35,794 nt of DNA from a virus. Within the stretch, counting starts at the first letter, position 1. The number at the start of each line of letters is the position of its first letter. Shown here piece after piece: positions 659 through 35,794 of this stretch. The position numbers and the translations under genes were made by a program. The stretch spans positions 1 through 35,794 of the IMG/VR virus record IMGVR_UViG_3300039043_000084. One strand, 5' to 3'. The notes beneath the pieces were generated by a model that did not search any database, was not told where the DNA came from, and worked only from the letters and a program-made list of their open reading frames with translations.

Positions 659-1600
659 TTAGAATGGTAAATCGTCATCATCCAGATCATGCTTTTTGAA
701 CTCGTCAGAAAGATTAGCGGATGATCCTTTACTTTGAGGTATTTCTTCATACTCGTACTTAACCTCACCATTAGGCAACGTTTGCTCTGCAATCCATCGT
801 TCCACATCAAGATTAAATTTACCTGATGGCATGGCCACCAAGTCTTTTATCTTACTTTTAGGAACCCAGTAAGGCTTTGTAGCCTCAAAGTCACCTGTGT
901 CGCCTTTAAAGCTACTTGGTATCAGTAAATATGATTTATCAGATTCTCTTACCTTATGAAGATTTTTAATTCTGACATATTCATTTTCTGGAGGCGTACC
1001 TTGCTTTAAATCAGACTTGGGCTTTACCTCTTGGCCCTCGCCACGATCTTCTGCCTGCTTTGCCAGCTTTTTAATCTTCTCTTGGGCCTCATTTACTTCG
1101 GTAGGAGGCTGGGACTCAGTGACCTGAGAAGATGTAGTTGTGGGCTCACTGCTGTTCTGCTGTGCGGAACTGTCCCAGCCTATAGGTTTCCAATCTCTTT
1201 CGACATAGCCATTTGATAAATCGGCCCAATACTGAGGCATTGAATATAAATCACGACCAATACCATAATGGACTGCGGCTCTTTTAAATGCATCTGATAC
1301 TTGGCCTTTCTCAGCATCTACCTCTGTTTCCATACCACAATCAGCTTTAGTTGTACTGGATCCATCTGGCCATTTAATCATTAGCCTGCAAAACAGGTGA
1401 TTGCCAACAACATCATATTCTGTTGACCAGTTCTCTTTGCCTACAGCCTCATCAAGTCTGTCCATTACAAACCTTGCATCCACATACGCAAGCATACAGG
1501 CCTTTGTATTACTTTTATTTTTAAAACCTACCCTAAAGTTTATACGTTCTTTTGGCGTAGGTGCAGATAGTGCATCTATCACTTCTTTATTTTTTGACAT
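659..1600 (-). CDS. Rad52/Rad22-family single-strand annealing protein with SSB-like tip
   Basis: Residues about 15-130 match the Rad52/22 fold found in phage annealases: INFRVGFKNK, then AYVDARFVMDRLDEAVG, ENWSTEY, and a FKRAAVHYGIGRDLY helix. This core anneals single strands during recombination-dependent replication. A low-complexity Gln/Glu/Lys linker (about 145-205) leads to a second compact segment (about 208-285). The last residues are DLDDDDLPF, closely resembling the acidic tip of bacterial SSB (DDDIPF type). The ribosome site AAAAGGATAAAA precedes the ATG. It lies in the leftward operon with HTH, zinc-ribbon and RuvC-like genes, consistent with DNA recombination. Family assignment is confident; the role of the tip is inferred. 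Confidence 0.88.
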   Translation of the reverse strand: MSKNKEVIDALSAPTPKERINFRVGFKNKSNTKACMLAYVDARFVMDRLDEAVGKENWSTEYDVVGNHLFCRLMIKWPDGSSTTKADCGMETEVDAEKGQVSDAFKRAAVHYGIGRDLYSMPQYWADLSNGYVERDWKPIGWDSSAQQNSSEPTTTSSQVTESQPPTEVNEAQEKIKKLAKQAEDRGEGQEVKPKSDLKQGTPPENEYVRIKNLHKVRESDKSYLLIPSSFKGDTGDFEATKPYWVPKSKIKDLVAMPSGKFNLDVERWIAEQTLPNGEVKYEYEEIPQSKGSSANLSDEFKKHDLDDDDLPF

Positions 1601-1615
1601 TTTTATCCTTTTTAT

Positions 1616-1951
1616 TTAGAAATCCAATAACCTTTGGCCATCATCATCAAGCAACCTTTCCTGTGCATCTTCCAGCTTTTTTATTACGTCAACAATGGCC
1701 GCTACACGGCTTTTGAGATCTGCAACGCTTGCATTTAACTCACTTGCTTTCGTGGCGTAATAAAAACCTTTAGATCCACTTCCTATCGGATGGCAATCAA
1801 GACGTAGTTGCCTGATCGTCTGGCGTACTTCGACATCATTAATATTAAACTGCCGTTGTATTCTTTTACTGGTCATTGGCTTTTGTTCACTGCTATCAAA
1901 TTTTAATAAGTTTAAAACTCGATCTTTGTAATAATCAGCCGTATCAGTCAT
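1616..1951 (-). CDS. Winged-helix protein with C-terminal coiled coil
   Basis: The N-terminal half shows a winged helix: KPMTSKRIQRQFNINDVEVR as the recognition region, then a wing GSGSKGFYYA (about residues 56-66). The C-terminal half, SVADLKSRVAAIVDVIKKLE onward, is a predicted coiled coil, so the protein probably oligomerises. It ends QRLLDF. The ATG overlaps the 3' end of the gene at 1944..2132, indicating translational coupling. It is likely a phage DNA-binding accessory or regulatory protein; there is no catalytic signature. Confidence 0.65.
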   Translation of the reverse strand: MTDTADYYKDRVLNLLKFDSSEQKPMTSKRIQRQFNINDVEVRQTIRQLRLDCHPIGSGSKGFYYATKASELNASVADLKSRVAAIVDVIKKLEDAQERLLDDDGQRLLDF

Positions 1952-2132
1952 CTGATTGTAAATGCTGATCTATATATTCTTGCATAAAGTTTTTTAACAC
2001 TTCATTGCCAGATTTATTATTCAGTTTACAAACAGCTAAAAACTTTGATCTCAGCACTTGATCAAGACCAATAATCTGAAATCTATGATCTTTAACTGTT
2101 GTGCTTGGATCAACTTTATATTGCTTTTTCAT
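1944..2132 (-). CDS. Small protein, possibly ribbon-helix-helix like
   Basis: This 62-residue protein starts MKKQYKVDPSTTVKDHRFQI and has a helical C-terminal part ending DQHLQSDD. The layout of a short strand-forming start followed by two helices is compatible with a ribbon-helix-helix DNA binder, but no diagnostic motif is visible, so I leave the function open. An AGGAACAGT element precedes the ATG. It overlaps the winged-helix gene downstream by 8 bases and follows a small membrane protein in the same operon. Confidence 0.55.
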   Translation of the reverse strand: MKKQYKVDPSTTVKDHRFQIIGLDQVLRSKFLAVCKLNNKSGNEVLKNFMQEYIDQHLQSDD

Positions 2133-2140
2133 ACTGTTCC

Positions 2141-2329
2141 TTATGTTGTTATTATTATTATAATTACGACCAACGTAACGACTATCAAAAGTCTATGATC
2201 GTCACTCATTTCAAACTCTTTTTCTATCAAGCTGTCAAAGAATAAATACAGTAGAGGCAAGCTCACTGCTGTCATTGCCAATGAAATTGAAAAGATCAAG
2301 AAGTTTGCGATAAACTCATATATTTGCAT
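2141..2329 (-). CDS. Small two-helix membrane protein, first gene of leftward operon
   Basis: The 62-residue protein has two strongly hydrophobic segments, residues about 6-29 and 47-60 (ending VVIIIIITT), separated by a charged loop SLIEKEFEMSDDHR. It is likely an inner-membrane protein of unknown role, possibly superinfection exclusion or host takeover. There is no Shine-Dalgarno sequence: the ATG lies only 6 nt after a good -10 (TATTAT), so the transcript may be leaderless. It heads the leftward early operon. Confidence 0.55.
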   Translation of the reverse strand: MQIYEFIANFLIFSISLAMTAVSLPLLYLFFDSLIEKEFEMSDDHRLLIVVTLVVIIIIITT

Positions 2330-2335
2330 GTACCT

Positions 2336-2364
2336 ATAATATTTCTGTTATAATTCTAATGCAA
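2336..2364 (-). promoter_or_regulatory. Leftward sigma70-like promoter of the early operon
   Basis: On the minus strand TTGCAT (2359..2364) is separated by 17 bp from TATTAT (2336..2341). The -35 hexamer is the same TTGCAT used by the five rightward modules. The expected transcription start falls at or next to the ATG at 2329. It is arranged back-to-back with the rightward promoter at 2389. Confidence 0.6.
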
Positions 2365-2388
2365 GTTATATTTCTTATAATTATTTAC

Positions 2389-2430
2389 TTGCATCTAATT
2401 GTTATAAGTGTTAGACTTATAAAGGTTATG
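2389..2430 (+). promoter_or_regulatory. Promoter/leader module copy 1
   Basis: TTGCAT (2389..2394), 17-bp spacer, TAGACT (2412..2417), 10 nt, then GTTATGA with ATG at 2428, exactly 33 nt before the start codon at 2461, and GGAG just before that start. The same arrangement occurs at 23336, 30086, 31669 and 32451. In this copy the upstream ATG frame is closed by TAA TAG. Confidence 0.75.
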
Positions 2431-2460
2431 ATTAAAAAATGCAATTAATAGGAGTTAAAA

Positions 2461-2769
2461 ATGACAAAAACAAAATCAAATAACTGGGAAATACGAGTTG
2501 AAGAAAATGGACACAAAAAAACAGCCAGATGTGGTATTGAAAATACAGTATTTATTACTACTAATGATGGTGCTAACTCTCTGATGATACATTTATGTAA
2601 TGATGGCTCTGCTGATGTTCGTGTACACGCACATAAAGAAAACGACAGTCATGCTGAAATATCTAAATGGACACACAAACTTAAAGCAGAAGATGGCACG
2701 CCTTTTACTACAAAAAGTACAAAAGTTTCTTGCCAAAAAACATCTTTGACTTTAGTTAAGTTTGATTAA
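2461..2769 (+). CDS. Hypothetical protein (102 aa), first gene of rightward cassette
   Basis: I do not recognise this protein. It is a soluble, beta-rich looking 102-residue product starting MTKTKSNNWEIRVEENGH, with alternating hydrophobic and polar residues (VFITTNDGANSLMIHLC) suggesting a small beta-sandwich. A GGAG site lies 7 nt upstream and the conserved promoter/leader module drives it. The next gene begins 11 nt after its stop behind another GGAGCTAAA, so 2461..3908 is probably one transcript. Confidence 0.7.
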   Translation: MTKTKSNNWEIRVEENGHKKTARCGIENTVFITTNDGANSLMIHLCNDGSADVRVHAHKENDSHAEISKWTHKLKAEDGTPFTTKSTKVSCQKTSLTLVKFD

Positions 2770-13370: not shown

Positions 13371-13515
13371 CTGACCTCCCCATTGCCTTGTATAAGGCTT
13401 TTTTTATTGATGTCCATAGTAAATCATCCCAAGTGCTTGGGCTTAACGCTACGGCTTTATCTATCGCCATTACAGCAATAACAACATACTCCCAGTTCTC
13501 AACCATCCAGTTCAT
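13354..13515 (-). CDS. Small acidic/aromatic protein (53 aa)
   Basis: The frame starts MNWMVENWEYVVIAVMAIDK and ends MGRSDELVK. A hydrophobic N-terminal segment (YVVIAVMAI) could associate with the membrane, followed by a Trp-rich amphipathic part (STWDDLLW). It overlaps genes on both sides by a few bases, consistent with coupled translation. With its downstream partner it lies between basic proteins and could be a small holin-like or scaffold accessory pair; function unknown. Confidence 0.62.
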   Translation of the reverse strand: MNWMVENWEYVVIAVMAIDKAVALSPSTWDDLLWTSIKKALYKAMGRSDELVK

Positions 13516-13760
13516 CTGGCTCTCCTTACTCTTTTTGCAACCCTCTTTGTGTACTTAGCCTTTGCCTTGCCTTTTTTATTAGCTGTTCTCTTCTTTCTAT
13601 TCTCATACGCTTTTTGAGATGCAGTTAAACTTTTTCTTACGCTTGCAGGTAAATACCTACCTCTTTTACGGCGTGGTTTTTTAGAATCACCTTTTGTAAT
13701 GTAACCCCAATCCTGCTTTGTCCATTTTTTTAAACTTTTTTGTGATCTTTTTAGTGCCAT
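13512..13760 (-). CDS. Small basic protein 3, DUF5872-like (82 aa)
   Basis: The pattern SQKSLKKWTKQDWGYITKG, then RYLPASVRKSLTASQKAY and a Lys/Arg-rich tail resembles the DUF5872 family seen in aquatic phages and giant viruses (KSLKKWT ... RYLP ... SLT). The protein is extremely basic. A virion or DNA-compaction role is inferred from charge and late-region position; no enzyme motif is present. It joins neighbours by 1- to 4-base overlaps. Confidence 0.7.
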   Translation of the reverse strand: MALKRSQKSLKKWTKQDWGYITKGDSKKPRRKRGRYLPASVRKSLTASQKAYENRKKRTANKKGKAKAKYTKRVAKRVRRAR

Positions 13761-13966: not shown

Positions 13967-14248
13967 TTACCATTTAACCTTATTTGCCCAATAACTGCCA
14001 CTCATAACACCTTTTTTAATCCCTTTAGCATGCCTTTTTTTAAATGCTCTTCTACGAGCTTTTTCAACTTTTGTCCTTGGATTTTTACCAGCCCCCCTCA
14101 CGCCCTGCTGACCAAATCTAATTAATTTTATTTTACCACTTTTACTTTTTGCCAACACTATATGACTTTTAGTCTTATGTCGTGGCGTTCTTTTAGGCTT
14201 ATTAAAGCCACTAAGGCCAAACCTTTTTAGTCTTGGATCTCTCGCCAT
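13967..14248 (-). CDS. Small basic protein 5 (93 aa)
   Basis: The protein starts MARDPRLKRFGLSGFNKPKR, has a short beta-rich core LIRFGQQGVRGAGKNPRT, and ends with RRRAFKKRHAKGIKKGVMSG then YWANKVKW. This exact style (DPRLKR.G..G.NKPKRTP ... RFGQQGV ... FK.RHAK ... YWANKVKW) recurs in aquatic phage genomes, although the biochemical role is unknown. It lies next to the holin-like gene and upstream of four more basic or small genes. Confidence 0.75.
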   Translation of the reverse strand: MARDPRLKRFGLSGFNKPKRTPRHKTKSHIVLAKSKSGKIKLIRFGQQGVRGAGKNPRTKVEKARRRAFKKRHAKGIKKGVMSGSYWANKVKW

Positions 14249-16540: not shown

Positions 16541-19500
16541 TTATGCGTTATTTGAACGACTGATTTCTAACCATTTGCTTTTACCAGCACAATATAAAAG
16601 AGTTAGTGTATCTAAACTATTTGTAAAAGTAAAATCTCCTTCAAGTGCCAAATTACCAGTTCCATCTTTTGCAGTAACATCTCTACCATCAGCATCATCT
16701 CTTAATATTAAAAGTTGCCCATCAGAACCACCATTAATAGTGTCAAGGTCATCGGTTCCAGCACCGCCTTCAGTATCTAAGGTGTGATAGTTTCTTGTTG
16801 CTGTTACAGCACCAGAAGATATTGTTAATTCTGTATCTGCTGAAAAAGTTAAAATACCACCAGATAAATTTACTCCAGCACAATGAACTGTAGCACCACT
16901 ATCTACTGCCATATAAACATCAGTTACATTTGCATTACCGAGAAATACACTATCACTTGAGGTGGCTTCAAAATTATTACCAATAGCTGTTACATTATCA
17001 AAGTTTCCAGTATTTACATCAACATTTGCACCTATTAAAGTATTATTAAAACCAGTGCTTATTTGAAACCCAGCTTTATAACCTATTGCGGTTAAATTAT
17101 CACAAGCAGAACTTGTAGCACCATGAAGAGCCTTCCATCCTATAGCAGTATTTTGGCTTCCTCCATCTGGTAAAGAAGTCAATGCTTCGTATCCAACAGC
17201 AGTATTGTAACTACCAGTGCCATTAGTAGTTAAACTTAAATATCCTACTGCCAAATTACCTGAACCAGATGTTAAATTCTTTAATGCTCTAAATCCTACA
17301 GCAGTTGTACCAACATGAGGAGTAACTCCTGTACTCATTATTGCTTCGTGACCTATAGCAACATTACCTTGACTTACAGATGCTCCTGTGTCTGCCATTG
17401 AACCAGCAAGAAAAGCACTATTACCAATAGCGATATTACTGTTTGCTCTTGCATCGTTGTGTACACCAGCATTTAATGAACCCATTGCATCTACACCAAT
17501 AGCAATATTATCAGAACCGCCATTATTACCATCATCACCAGCTAAAGCATCCAATGCTTGATAACCTAAAGCTGTATTGCGATTACCTTGTAACACAGAT
17601 TTTGCACTTTCAAAACCAATCGCTGTATTTTTTTCTCCAGATGTCAATGCTGTAAGAGCATTTCTTCCTATTGCAATTGTTCCATCAGCCGAATCATTAT
17701 TTATTGCATATCCAGCGTTCCTTCCTATCACTACTACATCTTCAGCAGTTGTTGCTATTCCAAGAGCATCACTACCAATTCCAATATTAGAATCTCCAGA
17801 GGTAATATTAGTTAAAGCATCTTTTCCAATAGCCACATTCTGATTTCCAGAAGTCACATCAGTTAATGCTCTATACCCAACGCCAACGTTACCATCAGCA
17901 TCATCAGTTTGTGTTCCAGTACCGCCAGATAACTCACCCACAAAGACATTGAAATCTCCAGCACCATCTGAGTCGCCAGCAGTTTTACCAAATAGCGTAT
18001 TGCTTGTACCACTATCATTATTAGAAAGTGAGATTCTGGAGTTGGCATCAATCACAAGCCTATTAGTTGAACCAGTAAAGTCTGTTCCACTTCTTGATGC
18101 AGTTCTGTATGTTAGTGTACCATCATTGTAAGCAAACATACCTAAACCATCTCCAGATGATTCATAACCAGTATCTTCAAAAACTAATAATGATTGAGCT
18201 GAGTCACTTATAGTTAATACTGTTTTACTACTTCCAGTAATCGGGCTTGTAGTTCCTATACCAACGTGACCTCCGCTTACAACAACTATATCTGCATTAA
18301 AAGCAGAACTGTATGAATGACCTATATATAAGTAATCACCAGAATCATTCCAACCTATATGTCCAAATGCTCCACCAGATAAACCAGATTCACCTACTAA
18401 TATTTTTCTATTTGCACCATCTACATTTAGATTACCGCCAGACACAGTTACAGCACCAGCAAAAGTAGCGTTTTTATTCGATTCAAATTTTAATGCTGTA
18501 TCAGCAATAGATACTGTAGTAGTATCAGCAGTGCTTCTTACCGCAAGGTGCAATTCACCTAATCCATAACTACCAGTTCTTTTCCAGAAGATACCTTGTT
18601 TCCAATAGTCATCATTATTAAATGTTCCAAATGCTATTCCAGCAGATTCATTTAAAGACACTGATGGACTAACATTCATAGATATATGACCATCAGAATT
18701 AGAAAATGAATTATCGTCAGCAATAGAAAAATTCTTTAAAGGACTTGCTCCTATACCAACATTTCCAGAACTATCAATAGTCATCCTTGTACTTGGATTT
18801 GCACCAGTACCACTTGTACCAAAAAGTAAATCACCTCTTGGGTCTACTGATATAAAAGAACTTTCTTCACTGGTATTAAATCTGGATATAGCACCAGATG
18901 TATCAACCTGAGAGTTAGCACCAATAAATACTCCTATACCTACATTACTTGCCTGTCGAACACCTTGCACTATAGCATCGGTATCTACAACTGGGTCTTG
19001 CCATCTGATACCTTGATTGCCTGTAGTGTAAACATCTGGCTCAAATGCTATATCTGCTTCTGGACTTGACGCTCCTATACCAAGCCGACCATCCTCTGTC
19101 AGCCTCATTAACTCTGTGCCAGCACCACTACTACCATTAATACTAAATTCAAAAAATCTGTTAGTGTCATCATTGTCTATGTCAATATTAAAAGACATAT
19201 TCTCAAAAGCATTAATATGACCAGATGCTGTATCAGCTTTACCTATTGTTAAAATTCCGCCTTCTACATTTACTTCACCAGAAAAAGTAGCATTTTGACT
19301 GGAGTCTATAGTGAGTGCAGTAGAATAAACACTACCATTATATCCTCTGATTACTAAACTTCCGTGACTTGAGCCATTTCTAAGGCTTAGATATGTAGTT
19401 GCTCCACTTGTAAGGAGTTCAGATATTTGGTTTGTACCATCTGTGTCTTGAAGTGACAGGCTTGGAGTTGCATTGGCAACAAGAATATCACCAGCAAAGG

Positions 19501-20530
19501 TAGCTGATTGGTCAGAGGATAAGGTAAGTGCAAGAGTGTTTACATTATCTTGAGAAGTGTAGAAAGCAAGAAAGGAATCCATATTATCTGCACTTGATGT
19601 GAAATAATCTGAATCTTTACCAGCACGAATTGCACCAGCGTTTTTGGTTACAAAACTACTACCACCATTTGTAGTGCCTTGAAAATTAAATTCTATATCT
19701 GCTGTCTGCCCTGTTTCAGTATTAGAGGTAACATCATTGTTATGTATTTTTAATAAAGTGTGTGATGCGTTTCCATTGTTGCCTTGTAAATGTAATAAAG
19801 TGTCTGGAGTTCCACCTATACCAATACGCTTACTACTATCTATCATTAATGCTGTATCAGTATCTCCACCTACATTAAATCTAAATCGTGCAGAAGGACT
19901 TGCTTCAGAAACAGCATCAATCGTTATAGATGCAAGTTGCCCTGAGTTTTGAAACAAACCCCATTTAAATACATCTGGGTCGCCTTCAGTATAACCAAAT
20001 GTTCCATAATCACCAGCACTCCCACTAAAGTTTATTTGTGGACTGGTTGCTGATAGTGCAAGATTACCAGAAAAGGTAGCTAAACCATCATCAGCAATTC
20101 TTAATCTTTCTGTTTGGCTACCCATTGCCGCACCAGATGCAGTAAATACTATATCTTCAAAAGCACTTACATATAAACTATTACCATTACTTGCTCTATT
20201 ACTTCCAGATGCTCTTTGTAAACCAACATTATCATCGTGAAATTGTAATTTTTCTAAATTATTTGTGCCTACTACTAAATTACCAGCAATAACAGCTTTT
20301 GAGTTAGTCGTATCTACAACAAATACATCACCGCCATCACCATTCTTGCGTACAAGTAATGCTTCTGTGCCAGTAGCATCTATAATTGTGCTATTAGATA
20401 CAACAGATGTTAAATTAATACTTACATCGCCACCTACGCCCAGTGATCCAGTAACTGTAAGATCTCCATCAACTGTCCCTCCTGTAGATAAATTAGCGGC
20501 TACCGATTTACCAAGGACTGATTCAATCAT
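16541..20530 (-). CDS. Long tail fibre with YadA-like repeat region (1329 aa)
   Basis: The N-terminus (GDLTVTGSLGVGGDVSINLT) and many later units (LTLSSDQSATFAGDILV; ALTIDSSQNATFSGEVNVEG; GHVGIGTTSP) are short beta-prism repeats typical of phage fibres. From about residue 845 to 1207 the sequence turns into degenerate repeats of the form N-x-A-I-G-x-x-A-L, e.g. SGNQNVAIGKDALTNITSG, which resemble the YadA-type left-handed beta-roll of trimeric adhesins. It ends without a recognisable S74 chaperone motif. It probably forms a trimeric receptor-binding fibre. Confidence 0.85.
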   Translation of the reverse strand: MIESVLGKSVAANLSTGGTVDGDLTVTGSLGVGGDVSINLTSVVSNSTIIDATGTEALLVRKNGDGGDVFVVDTTNSKAVIAGNLVVGTNNLEKLQFHDDNVGLQRASGSNRASNGNSLYVSAFEDIVFTASGAAMGSQTERLRIADDGLATFSGNLALSATSPQINFSGSAGDYGTFGYTEGDPDVFKWGLFQNSGQLASITIDAVSEASPSARFRFNVGGDTDTALMIDSSKRIGIGGTPDTLLHLQGNNGNASHTLLKIHNNDVTSNTETGQTADIEFNFQGTTNGGSSFVTKNAGAIRAGKDSDYFTSSADNMDSFLAFYTSQDNVNTLALTLSSDQSATFAGDILVANATPSLSLQDTDGTNQISELLTSGATTYLSLRNGSSHGSLVIRGYNGSVYSTALTIDSSQNATFSGEVNVEGGILTIGKADTASGHINAFENMSFNIDIDNDDTNRFFEFSINGSSGAGTELMRLTEDGRLGIGASSPEADIAFEPDVYTTGNQGIRWQDPVVDTDAIVQGVRQASNVGIGVFIGANSQVDTSGAISRFNTSEESSFISVDPRGDLLFGTSGTGANPSTRMTIDSSGNVGIGASPLKNFSIADDNSFSNSDGHISMNVSPSVSLNESAGIAFGTFNNDDYWKQGIFWKRTGSYGLGELHLAVRSTADTTTVSIADTALKFESNKNATFAGAVTVSGGNLNVDGANRKILVGESGLSGGAFGHIGWNDSGDYLYIGHSYSSAFNADIVVVSGGHVGIGTTSPITGSSKTVLTISDSAQSLLVFEDTGYESSGDGLGMFAYNDGTLTYRTASRSGTDFTGSTNRLVIDANSRISLSNNDSGTSNTLFGKTAGDSDGAGDFNVFVGELSGGTGTQTDDADGNVGVGYRALTDVTSGNQNVAIGKDALTNITSGDSNIGIGSDALGIATTAEDVVVIGRNAGYAINNDSADGTIAIGRNALTALTSGEKNTAIGFESAKSVLQGNRNTALGYQALDALAGDDGNNGGSDNIAIGVDAMGSLNAGVHNDARANSNIAIGNSAFLAGSMADTGASVSQGNVAIGHEAIMSTGVTPHVGTTAVGFRALKNLTSGSGNLAVGYLSLTTNGTGSYNTAVGYEALTSLPDGGSQNTAIGWKALHGATSSACDNLTAIGYKAGFQISTGFNNTLIGANVDVNTGNFDNVTAIGNNFEATSSDSVFLGNANVTDVYMAVDSGATVHCAGVNLSGGILTFSADTELTISSGAVTATRNYHTLDTEGGAGTDDLDTINGGSDGQLLILRDDADGRDVTAKDGTGNLALEGDFTFTNSLDTLTLLYCAGKSKWLEISRSNNA

Positions 20531-30158: not shown

Positions 30159-30350
30159 ATGACAAAAGAGCATAAAGAATTATTAATTGAACTTGTAAAA
30201 AAAGAGAGAGTCAGGATAACAGTTAAATTGTGTAATTGGTATATTACTGAAGAGCAAAAGCAAGAGCTTGTTAAGGAGAGAGAGTCAGCTAATTCATTAA
30301 TTAATTTTTTGCAAAATGATTTACTACAAGATATGAAGGCAGGTGTGTAA
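30159..30350 (+). CDS. Small charged helical protein (63 aa)
   Basis: The protein starts MTKEHKELLIELVKKERVRI and consists mostly of charged helices (TEEQKQELVKERESANSLIN). I do not recognise it; it could be a small coiled-coil regulator. It is the first gene behind promoter module 3 and the next gene begins 1 nt after its stop. I prefer ATG 30159 with GAGGAG; an in-frame ATG at 30126 near the predicted RNA start would add 11 residues. Confidence 0.68.
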   Translation: MTKEHKELLIELVKKERVRITVKLCNWYITEEQKQELVKERESANSLINFLQNDLLQDMKAGV

Positions 30351-30351
30351 G

Positions 30352-31158
30352 ATGAAACCAAAATTCCATATTAGCCTCGGCGGCGAGCATAAGATTTTTA
30401 CTCTATGGTATCACTATGTAATTGATAATGGGTATATCTATAAAGATGTCTGGCAGTACGTTCAAAACCTATCTATTGATCCAGAAGAGGCTTATGCTAA
30501 AGCTAAAAAAATAGCTGGCAATGTAAATGTAGTCTGGGATGTGGATGAGGATAAAGGCATCCTAAATAAAATGGGCATCAGGGCATCAAATAAAACCTTT
30601 GATGGCACTACTCTTACATGGGGGAAAAAGTTTTATGGTCAAAAAATATCAGATATTATAAAAGATGAATTTGGCATAAAATACATTTCTCTGTCTTACG
30701 GATTCCCTACAAACCCAAGGCAGTGCGATCTTGACTGCTTGGCGTACACATCAAAACTTCCAGAAGTTGCAAAATATCTAAAAGACTTAGAAGATGAGAA
30801 AAAAAGAAAAAACGAGCTTGCTAATCTTTTAGTTGGTACTCTTAAAGAATCAGATCATATTGGAACAGTTGGCGAGTCTATAGATCTGGATGTTACAGTA
30901 AAAAGTGCTTTTTGGGTAGATGGATATTATGGAAGTACGTTTTTAATCAGAATGATGGATAATGAGAACAATAGCATTAGTTGCTTTACAACATCAAAAT
31001 CATTTACTGATGTAAAACAGAATGACACTCTTAAAATATCTGGTGTTGTTAAAAAACATGATATTAGGAATGTAGAGGTAAAAGTAGAAGATGGGCGTGT
31101 AAACGTACCAGATGTAAAATCAACTTTAATTACAAGAATAAAAAGCAGGAGTAAATAA
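30352..31158 (+). CDS. Conserved phage protein with exonuclease-C-like segment (268 aa)
   Basis: The N-terminus MKPKFHISLGGEHKIFTLWY and IDNGYIYKDVWQYVQNL fit a phage protein seen in several aquatic phages. A central segment TWGKKFYGQKISDIIKDEFG then IKYISLSYGF resembles the (F)GKYxGKxxxxIxxxDxxYLxW repeat of DUF3820/ExoX-C domains, degenerate here. The last third (about 165-262) looks like an OB-type beta domain (DLDVTVKSAFWVDGYYGSTF). It may bind nucleic acid. I use ATG 30352; an in-frame GTG lies three codons upstream. Confidence 0.68.
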   Translation: MKPKFHISLGGEHKIFTLWYHYVIDNGYIYKDVWQYVQNLSIDPEEAYAKAKKIAGNVNVVWDVDEDKGILNKMGIRASNKTFDGTTLTWGKKFYGQKISDIIKDEFGIKYISLSYGFPTNPRQCDLDCLAYTSKLPEVAKYLKDLEDEKKRKNELANLLVGTLKESDHIGTVGESIDLDVTVKSAFWVDGYYGSTFLIRMMDNENNSISCFTTSKSFTDVKQNDTLKISGVVKKHDIRNVEVKVEDGRVNVPDVKSTLITRIKSRSK

Positions 31159-31668: not shown

Positions 31669-31711
31669 TTGCACTGTTTAAACATTCTGTATTATAATTG
31701 TTATAGTTATG
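31669..31711 (+). promoter_or_regulatory. Promoter/leader module copy 4, with GTTTAAAC in the spacer
   Basis: TTGCAC (31669..31674), 18-bp spacer, perfect TATAAT (31693..31698), 10 nt, then GTTATGAC with ATG at 31709, exactly 33 nt before the GTG start at 31742; AAGGAG precedes it. The palindrome GTTTAAAC (31676..31683) sits between -35 and -10, a typical operator position. Confidence 0.82.
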
Positions 31712-31741
31712 ACACACGAAAACAAAGAAAAGGAGTTTAAA

Positions 31742-32386
31742 GTGAAACAAACTAACAGAGAATCATGGTTGAACAGCATGGCACAGGAACTAAAAAAGCG
31801 TGTATTTGTTAAAGCAGGTCTAAAACTTGACCTTAATACCATCAAAATCAGTGTTGGCTACCCTCCAAAGGGCGGTGCATCAAAGGTTGGTAAGGCGATA
31901 GGCGTATGTTTCCCAAAAGCGGCCTCAGATGCTAACGTAAACGAGATCTTTATTAACCCATGCTTGGATAAAAGTCAGGTTACTAAAGTTGCAGGCGTAT
32001 TAGTTCACGAGCTAATCCACGCTATTGATGATTGCCGTAATGGTCATGGCCCAGTATTCAGAAAGATGGCGATTGCTTGTGGCCTTGAAGGTAAGATGAC
32101 TGCTACTACAGAGTCTGCAAAGCTCAAGGAGATCATCAATAACATCACAAAAAAGATCGGCCCATACCCACACAAAAAGCTCAACTATGAGATAGGCAGA
32201 AAAAAGCAAACCACAAGAAATCTAAAGATTGAGTGCCCTAAGTGCTGGCAGACAGGTGATCCATACTTTGTTCGCATGAGTAGAACTATGTTTCAAAAAG
32301 CCGCACCTACATGTGGTGTATGTGGTACAAAGATGGTGGATGACGTAATCACTGGCTTAATAGATCAAATAGTTACATCATCATAG
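31742..32386 (+). CDS. SprT-like zinc metallopeptidase with C-terminal zinc ribbon
   Basis: The protein has HELIHAID (HExxH, H89 and H93, E90 catalytic) and a third ligand H102 in NGHGPVF, the SprT/Spartan arrangement. Two Cys pairs, CPKC (165-168) and CGVC (191-194), form a zinc ribbon. Cellular SprTN/Wss1 relatives digest DNA-protein crosslinks; phage SprT-like proteins are common but their targets are unknown. I choose GTG 31742 with AAGGAG; ATG 31709 is in frame and would add 11 residues. It has its own promoter module and terminator. Confidence 0.85.
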   Translation: MKQTNRESWLNSMAQELKKRVFVKAGLKLDLNTIKISVGYPPKGGASKVGKAIGVCFPKAASDANVNEIFINPCLDKSQVTKVAGVLVHELIHAIDDCRNGHGPVFRKMAIACGLEGKMTATTESAKLKEIINNITKKIGPYPHKKLNYEIGRKKQTTRNLKIECPKCWQTGDPYFVRMSRTMFQKAAPTCGVCGTKMVDDVITGLIDQIVTSS

Positions 32387-34882: not shown

Positions 34883-35149
34883 CTATTCCTCTTCATCTTT
34901 GTCATTTAATATCCTTTTACAGAATGTACATACAACCCTGTTAAGTCCATAAGTAGGTAAATGATCATATCTTCTTACTGTACCTGTGTGTCCTATCTCC
35001 CAGACCTGATCACAGTTAGGACACAGCTTTAACCTTCTGGCCTCCTTTACATAATGATTGCTGTTGTACTTCTTCTTTACATGATAAGGCTGGCCATACC
35101 TAACGTTTAGCTTATCTATAACCCATTGTATGCCCTCATCATCACTCAT
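34883..35149 (-). CDS. Zinc-binding protein with two CxxC pairs (88 aa)
   Basis: CPNCDQVWEIG (residues about 43-53) and CTFCKRILND (about 74-83) supply four Cys for one zinc. The N-terminal part (VIDKLNVRYGQPYHVKKKYN) is basic. Small two-CxxC proteins of this type lie beside RuvC-like or HNH genes in many phages. DNA binding is likely; no His-Asn-His nuclease core is visible. It overlaps the RuvC-like gene by 8 bases and ends at the DnaA box. Confidence 0.65.
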   Translation of the reverse strand: MSDDEGIQWVIDKLNVRYGQPYHVKKKYNSNHYVKEARRLKLCPNCDQVWEIGHTGTVRRYDHLPTYGLNRVVCTFCKRILNDKDEEE

Positions 35150-35636
35150 CTTTTAATGCCTTATGTACAAAGCCTGTAGATAACTCTGATTCACTAAGGT
35201 CTGGTGCTACCTGTCTGCACCAATTAGCCAATAGGATAGCATCTGCTGTCTTTAACGTTACTTTCTCTGTAGGATACAATGACTGTGCTAAATGCTTTAA
35301 GTGTGCCTTCCTCTTCTTCCTGTCCTTTGGCATAGCTCCATAGAACTTCATCCATGTCTGTGGAGGTACTTCCCTGTAGGGTACTTCATGTGCCGCTAAT
35401 ATACCAAGCCATTCGCCATAGTTCTTCCCAAATGTCCATACAGATCGTACTCCCTGTTTAGGCATAGAGTGTACCTTTTCAATGATACAGAACATGTTTA
35501 AACAGTCCCATTTAGCCAGCTTTATAATATCTGACATGTCTTTTACAGTATCTGGACAGTTATGCGTTTCTATATGCCCATTATCTAATATGGCTATACC
35601 TCCATTAACACCAGCATCTATTCCAATGTGGATCAT
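35142..35636 (-). CDS. RuvC-like Holliday junction resolvase
   Basis: The 164-residue protein carries the RuvC-type RNase H fold motifs: GIDAGVNGGIAIL (D7), FCIIEKVHSM (E53), and TADAILLANW (D132), with SVWTFGKNYGEWLGIL and EVPPQTWMKFYG between them, as in phage RuvC-like resolvases. It should cut branched DNA before packaging, matching the Rad52-type annealase upstream in the same leftward operon. A degenerate relative lies at 14956. The ATG overlaps the stop of the 48-residue gene (ATGA), with CAGGAGGG upstream. Confidence 0.85.
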   Translation of the reverse strand: MIHIGIDAGVNGGIAILDNGHIETHNCPDTVKDMSDIIKLAKWDCLNMFCIIEKVHSMPKQGVRSVWTFGKNYGEWLGILAAHEVPYREVPPQTWMKFYGAMPKDRKKRKAHLKHLAQSLYPTEKVTLKTADAILLANWCRQVAPDLSESELSTGFVHKALKDE

Positions 35637-35779
35637 GTACCCTCCTGTTTTTTTATTTCATAATTAATACCCTTAAAACCTCGTAACGTAAATACCCAAG
35701 CATAAGCATGCTTTCCAGCATAACTTGCACTATATGAGGCGTTTTTGCCCCAAATAGACTTATTCTGTTTCTTTTTCAT
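35633..35779 (-). CDS. Small basic protein crossing the circular join (48 aa)
   Basis: The frame starts MKKKQNKSIWGKNASYSASY and ends IKKQEGT at TGA 35633..35635. AAAGGA lies just upstream of the ATG (35779), which overlaps the end of the gene at 39..287 in circular coordinates, and its stop overlaps the RuvC-like start. The same 5' part is repeated at 58..1. Basic and Tyr-rich; function unknown. Confidence 0.7.
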   Translation of the reverse strand: MKKKQNKSIWGKNASYSASYAGKHAYAWVFTLRGFKGINYEIKKQEGT

Positions 35780-35794
35780 ATTCCTTTAATCTTT
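35722..35794. repeat. Direct terminal repeat, right copy
   Basis: Exact copy of bases 1..73; see the left copy. Removing one copy gives a continuous leftward operon through the junction. Confidence 0.9.

Follow-up and report, generated by a model that had tools for sequence, protein, structure and literature searches.

The window (the whole stretch of viral DNA that was analysed, 35,794 nucleotides long) carries a direct terminal repeat of 73 bases, at positions 1–73 and 35722–35794, and a sister contig, permuted and 35,780 bases long, runs across its junction. It is therefore a complete circular phage genome. No close DNA relatives were found for it among GenBank phages. The gene of interest encodes a Rad52/Erf-type single-strand annealing protein, here called the annealase. 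Its C-terminus reads KKHDLDDDDLPF and is followed directly by the stop codon, the last nine residues being DLDDDDLPF. The features of the locus are collected in Table 1.

Table 1 Features of the annealase locus, with coordinates in the window
Feature	Position	Strand	Basis or remarks
Rad52/Erf-type single-strand annealing protein gene	659..1600	-	313 aa; Pfam PF04098 and phrog_1097
Annealase domain, residues 1–143	1172..1600	-	Alignment of 13 homologues; structure prediction
Disordered linker, residues 144–206	983..1171	-	pLDDT <50 at 145–205; clade alignment
Small folded C-terminal domain, residues about 207–288	737..982	-	Five strands and one helix (predicted); pLDDT; hhalign
SSB-Ct-like acidic tip DLDDDDLPF, residues 305–313, and stop codon	659..688	-	D-x-P-F invariant in 7 clade members
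HTH_36 protein, next gene, 97 aa	362..655	-	Pfam HTH_36 E 1e-8; phrog_19658 E 1e-17
Upstream gene	1616..1951	-	phrog_2113, of no assigned function; acidic ending DDDGQRLLDF
RuvC-like Holliday junction resolvase	35142..35636	-	phrog_1770 E 3e-26

A Pfam scan of the 45 ORFs identified structural and lysis genes, a nuclease, a SprT-like protein, the HTH_36 protein and the annealase, and found no polymerase, replicative helicase, primase or SSB among them. No match to an SSB profile was obtained in the window genome or in related records, which are referred to below by their L numbers. The HTH_36 protein resembles the N-termini of phage replication initiation proteins, and the order of annealase followed by HTH_36 gene is the same in L017, L018 and L307. 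The RuvC-like gene belongs to the annealase operon across the circular junction, and is contiguous with it in L001 and L017. Elsewhere in the genome, a protein of 271 residues (30343–31158, plus strand) has a C-terminal part, at about 140–255, which reads like an OB-type strand pattern. It is tip-less and matches only PHROGs families of no assigned function, and could be a divergent SSB beyond recognition by profiles.

The identification of the protein as a Rad52-type annealase, made in an earlier note from the sequence alone, is confirmed by family matches and by invariant residues. The Pfam profile Rad52_Rad22 (PF04098) matches residues 5–134 over positions 3–150 of its 153, with E 3e-13 and 50.3 bits against a cut-off of 20.3, and the PHROGs family phrog_1097, 'Erf-like ssDNA annealing protein', matches residues 7–200 with E 6e-38. 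An alignment of 13 homologues has a family-invariant stretch KGxxSDAxKRAAVxxGIGRxLY, which is present in the annealase domain; the invariant residues K98, G99, S102, K106, R107, A108, G113, G115, L118 and Y119 are all kept. A search of PDB sequences with the protein gave no useful match, and the annealase profile reached human RAD52 at just E 0.55.

The structure of the full-length protein was predicted from 22 sequences. The predicted layout is an annealase domain (1–143), a disordered stretch (145–205), a second folded domain (about 208–287) and a disordered tail (289–313). The annealase domain is modelled with pLDDT of about 80–95 except in the loop 91–97, and the tail has pLDDT <50. In the clade of close relatives described below, the linker 144–206 evolves fast in both sequence and length. 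The protein had been thought to have a long disordered linker before the tip, as in SSB; the disorder is indeed predicted, but the linker is separated from the tip by the second folded domain.

Most of this C-terminal domain has pLDDT of about 85–93, and it stays confidently modelled when predicted alone (block means of 83–93 for residues 11–90 of the fragment). The earlier note had proposed that the segment at about 208–285 is an OB-like fusion that could replace SSB. A small folded domain is thus confidently predicted, but its modelled order of elements, β-β-α-β-β-β, is unlike the β1-β2-β3-α-β4-β5 of the canonical OB fold. No OB or SSB family of Pfam matches the domain, the OB domain of SSB (PF00436) finds no match anywhere in the annealase protein, and a comparison of the domain with PDB sequences also gave none. 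The relatives that it does have are small uncharacterised proteins, and the OB proposal is not upheld in the form in which it was made.

These relatives came to light through weak matches of the C-terminal region to GenBank phages, one of which led to the family phrog_8389. Its members are stand-alone proteins of no assigned function, homologous to residues about 218–275 (hmmscan E 0.0012); hhalign of the domain against the family gives a probability of 96 and E 2.6e-9 over 47 columns. YuA-like phages and Microcystis phage Mel-JY34 have the phrog_8389 gene next to a DNA polymerase gene, and Stenotrophomonas phage DLP_3 has it next to a helicase gene. The annotation of one homologue reads 'ribosomal protein S1-like RNA-binding domain'. 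The phrog_8389 proteins differ from the annealase in standing alone and in having no tip, and in YuA-like phages they have a Cys-rich N-terminal part. Stand-alone members were seen in L016 (1399–1716), L303 (1381–1695), L304 (1498–1704) and L305 (1396–1611). They share a motif W(I/M)PKSQ...EWIAxxKGL, look like a small replication-associated domain, and have polymerase or helicase genes as neighbours in phages that are unrelated.

The C-terminal module of the annealase was found in the window and in L001, L017, L018, L217 and L220, with L307 added later; this small clade of seven records includes several near-identical pairs. The resemblance of the C-terminus to the tip of bacterial SSB, which had been pointed out earlier, is borne out: acidic residues, a Pro and a terminal Phe stand at the extreme C-terminus after a disordered stretch, and D-x-P-F is invariant in 6/6 aligned members. 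The window and L001 share the form DDDDLPF, and the other four have GEDVPF, EDDLPF (twice) and EDTPF. L307 was retrieved with the patterns DVDAEKG and GYVxRDW from the annealase half, that is, from outside the tail. It was the only new record obtained in this way, and it ends in KVEDTPF, so that tip conservation passed a prospective test. The two EDTPF endings have Thr at a position where other tips have Ile or Leu before the Pro, which might weaken docking.

Only the window and L001 have a spacer of about 20 residues between the folded domain and the tip; the other five lack it, which indicates that it was lost or gained within the clade, and the tip is kept in all seven. The tip codons of the window and L001 have synonymous differences only. 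For an estimate of chance, endings of the form [DE][DE]xPF were counted among those ORFs of the fetched loci that are at least 60 aa long. These end 37 of the 3,360 ORFs on the strand of the annealase operon, against none of the 3,581 on the opposite strand. Since D-x-P-F is kept across the clade despite a variable linker and the loss or gain of the spacer, the sequences indicate that the tip is no chance match. The product of the upstream gene also ends in acidic and aromatic residues, DDDGQRLLDF, an ending that serves as a control because it is not conserved in relatives; it was rejected as a tip on the same ground.

Outside this clade the annealases end differently. The tip is absent from all of about 165 further annealases surveyed, including 11/11 intact annealases of GenBank phages, all 80 in bacterial genome contigs, and the intact viral annealases outside the clade. 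The C-terminus of L019 is truncated where its contig stops. Homologues with unrelated C-termini, named earlier as a possible objection, are therefore the rule among distant relatives and are not found among the seven close ones. In a tree of the annealase domain, six tip-bearers form one clade (SH-aLRT 96) and require one change. The tree points to a single origin of the tip on the annealase, as a clade-specific acquisition. Another difference within the clade concerns a Mu Gam-like gene: in L017 (2478–2993, plus strand; Pfam E 4e-16) it immediately precedes the annealase gene, and L307 encodes at 1941–2501 (plus strand) a protein that by eye resembles its product. Since the window is without it, the gene content indicates that this gene was gained or lost within the clade.

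The sister branch (L020, L021, L022, L025 and L028) has short annealases of 148–154 residues, each followed immediately by a gene whose product ends in DEDIPF, LDEIPF or EDDIPF. These products match no family in the libraries searched, and are therefore called neighbours here and not SSBs. Comparison of the sequences does not recognisably identify the neighbour with the C-terminal domain of the window annealase. The two have just the tip in common, so that the comparison does not show the neighbour gene to have simply been fused to the annealase gene. In ul36 and a Yersinia phage the tip is likewise on an adjacent SSB or OB protein (the ul36 SSB ends in DDDLPF), and in HK75 a short extension follows the DDDIPF of the adjacent SSB. 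Gene pairs of the types erf-ssb and rad52-ssb are reported to be the usual organisation in phages of Firmicutes (PMC8093625). The tip motif occurs once in each record of the tip clade, in L022 and in L028, and twice in L025; in the window its single occurrence is on the annealase. The tip thus appears to have moved onto the annealase in the window lineage, because the nearest sisters and several characterised phages have it on the next gene and the window, with no recognisable SSB, has one tip motif.

Viral contigs were also scanned for DDD(I/L/M/V)PF followed by TAA, which gave at least 120 loci, and 118 proteins were scanned for families. Among the matches listed, the families were chiefly SSB, gp32-like, OB, DUF3127 and DUF669, with a few helicases. 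The Pfam families listed for the 118 do not include Rad52, Erf or RecT. Three of the 118 match the gp2.5-like annealing family phrog_112, and many of the 118 match no Pfam family. A search with the 118-row alignment gave no match; as it had no positive control, it carries no weight here.

The window annealase shares with the phage annealases of the Rad52, Erf and Sak types (ul36 Sak, P22-like Erf, HK75) its annealase domain, the invariant residues and the kind of recombination operon, but those proteins end without a tip. With the C-terminus of bacterial SSB (DFDDDIPF) it shares the acidic residues, the Pro-Phe, the free terminal carboxylate and the preceding disorder; the difference is that the tip is here attached, by way of an additional folded domain, to a protein of Rad52 fold, and that an SSB OB domain is not recognisable. 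Annealing proteins with SSB-like or acidic tails are already known in other folds. T7 gp2.5 and the gp2.5-like proteins combine ssDNA binding, annealing and an acidic C-terminal tail on one chain, and are OB-fold and not Rad52-fold proteins. DdrB of Deinococcus is a cellular protein of unrelated fold, and its purported SSB-like motif is reportedly dispensable for radioresistance (PMC3834827). An annealase is functionally tied to an SSB tip in the case of Sak4 and the SSB of phage HK620: both the arrival of Sak4 on SSB-coated DNA and the stimulation of annealing depend on the last six residues of SSB (PMC5928155). This system involves two proteins acting in trans, and Sak4 reads the tip and does not carry one. 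In the open-access literature, which was incompletely covered, we found no description of an SSB-like tip on a Rad52-type annealase.

On the basis of these observations we hypothesise, with a probability of about 0.55, that the annealase has acquired a C-terminal module, consisting of the linker, the replication-associated domain and the SSB-type tip, and that its tips recruit host proteins that are normally partners of SSB. One protein would then probably do the work of both annealase and tip. At phage ends that are broken or under replication, the Rad52-type domain would oligomerise on ssDNA and anneal complementary strands, and the many exposed tips would dock the host proteins that normally bind the SSB tip. 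Known binders are RecO, PriA, RecG, RecQ, RecJ, exonuclease I and the chi subunit of pol III. Annealing would thereby be coupled to end processing and replication restart run by the host, in a phage with no recognisable SSB or replisome of its own. With the tip on the annealase itself, DNA coated with annealase could call host enzymes directly. The pockets that bind the SSB C-terminus bury the terminal Phe, grip its carboxylate with basic residues and touch the acidic residues, and binding to RecG is weakened when the Phe is removed or the Pro changed (PMC10164576). The window tip has every feature addressed by such a pocket: a terminal Phe with a free carboxylate, a preceding Pro and upstream acidic residues.

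The main rivals of recruitment are autoregulation and the docking of a phage-encoded partner. The tip may act as an internal regulator which, in the absence of ssDNA, fills the annealase's basic DNA groove and so restricts loading of the protein to ssDNA. Autoregulatory tails of this kind have been proposed for SSB, gp32 and gp2.5. Here a flexible linker of roughly 60 residues joins the tip and the annealase domain in a single polypeptide, and contacts between the acidic tails of ssDNA-binding proteins and their own DNA-binding sites have been discussed (PMC5928155). We consider this unlikely: the invariance of the terminal Pro-Phe exceeds what an acidic tail needs, and the low-confidence tail is not placed by the model. 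We regard it as less likely still that the tip docks a phage-encoded partner, be it the HTH_36 initiator-like protein, the RuvC-like resolvase or a neighbouring annealase subunit. L017, L018 and L307 keep the HTH_36 and RuvC-like genes in synteny with the annealase gene, and recruitment of Sak4 by the tip of its cognate phage SSB offers a precedent (PMC5928155), but the tip is of the generic bacterial form, which suits host pockets. Neither autoregulation nor docking of a phage partner need exclude recruitment of host proteins.

A functionless tip, whether a relic or a chance acidic ending, is very improbable. Acidic tails that end in an aromatic residue do occur, as the non-conserved ending of the upstream gene illustrates, but retention of D-x-P-F in 7/7 members through changes in length, and the lack of any such ending on the opposite strand, both speak against it. 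A further reading, compatible with recruitment, is that the C-terminal domain itself binds ssDNA, so that together with the tip the protein would be a full replacement for SSB. The modelled domain is folded and β-rich, stand-alone homologues adjoin polymerase or helicase genes, one carries the S1-like annotation, and the genome is without a recognisable SSB; against this stand the lack of an OB or SSB family match and the non-canonical order of strands and helix, and we regard the reading as doubtful. Tentatively, the Rad52-type annealase may have taken over the hub role of SSB altogether, coating and annealing phage ssDNA and presenting tips to host repair and restart enzymes, so that a phage SSB gene would be needless. 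If this is true, it would be a natural fusion of annealase and hub that replaces the usual pair of annealase and SSB genes.

Phage annealases have been studied, and used for recombineering, largely through the way in which they handle SSB-coated DNA. An annealase that wears an SSB tip, with relatives that have the tip on the next gene, raises the question of whether the partnership of annealase and SSB can fuse into one chain, and of which host proteins have to be within reach of the tip. Such a protein could also offer a self-sufficient annealase that depends less on a matching host SSB.

Some other genes of the window are worth recording. The product of 16541–20530 (minus strand; 1,329 aa) contains many 'AIGxxALxxxTSGxxNxAxG' repeats resembling the head repeats of adhesins, and has no NCBIfam match. 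Two small, very Lys/Arg-rich proteins are encoded near the structural genes (13512–13760 and 13967–14248, minus strand; phrog_14910 and phrog_7595, of no assigned function). The gene at 31709–32386 (plus strand) encodes a protein with a SprT-like zinc metalloprotease domain (Pfam E 1e-6), and SprT-like proteins elsewhere are linked to the repair of DNA-protein crosslinks.
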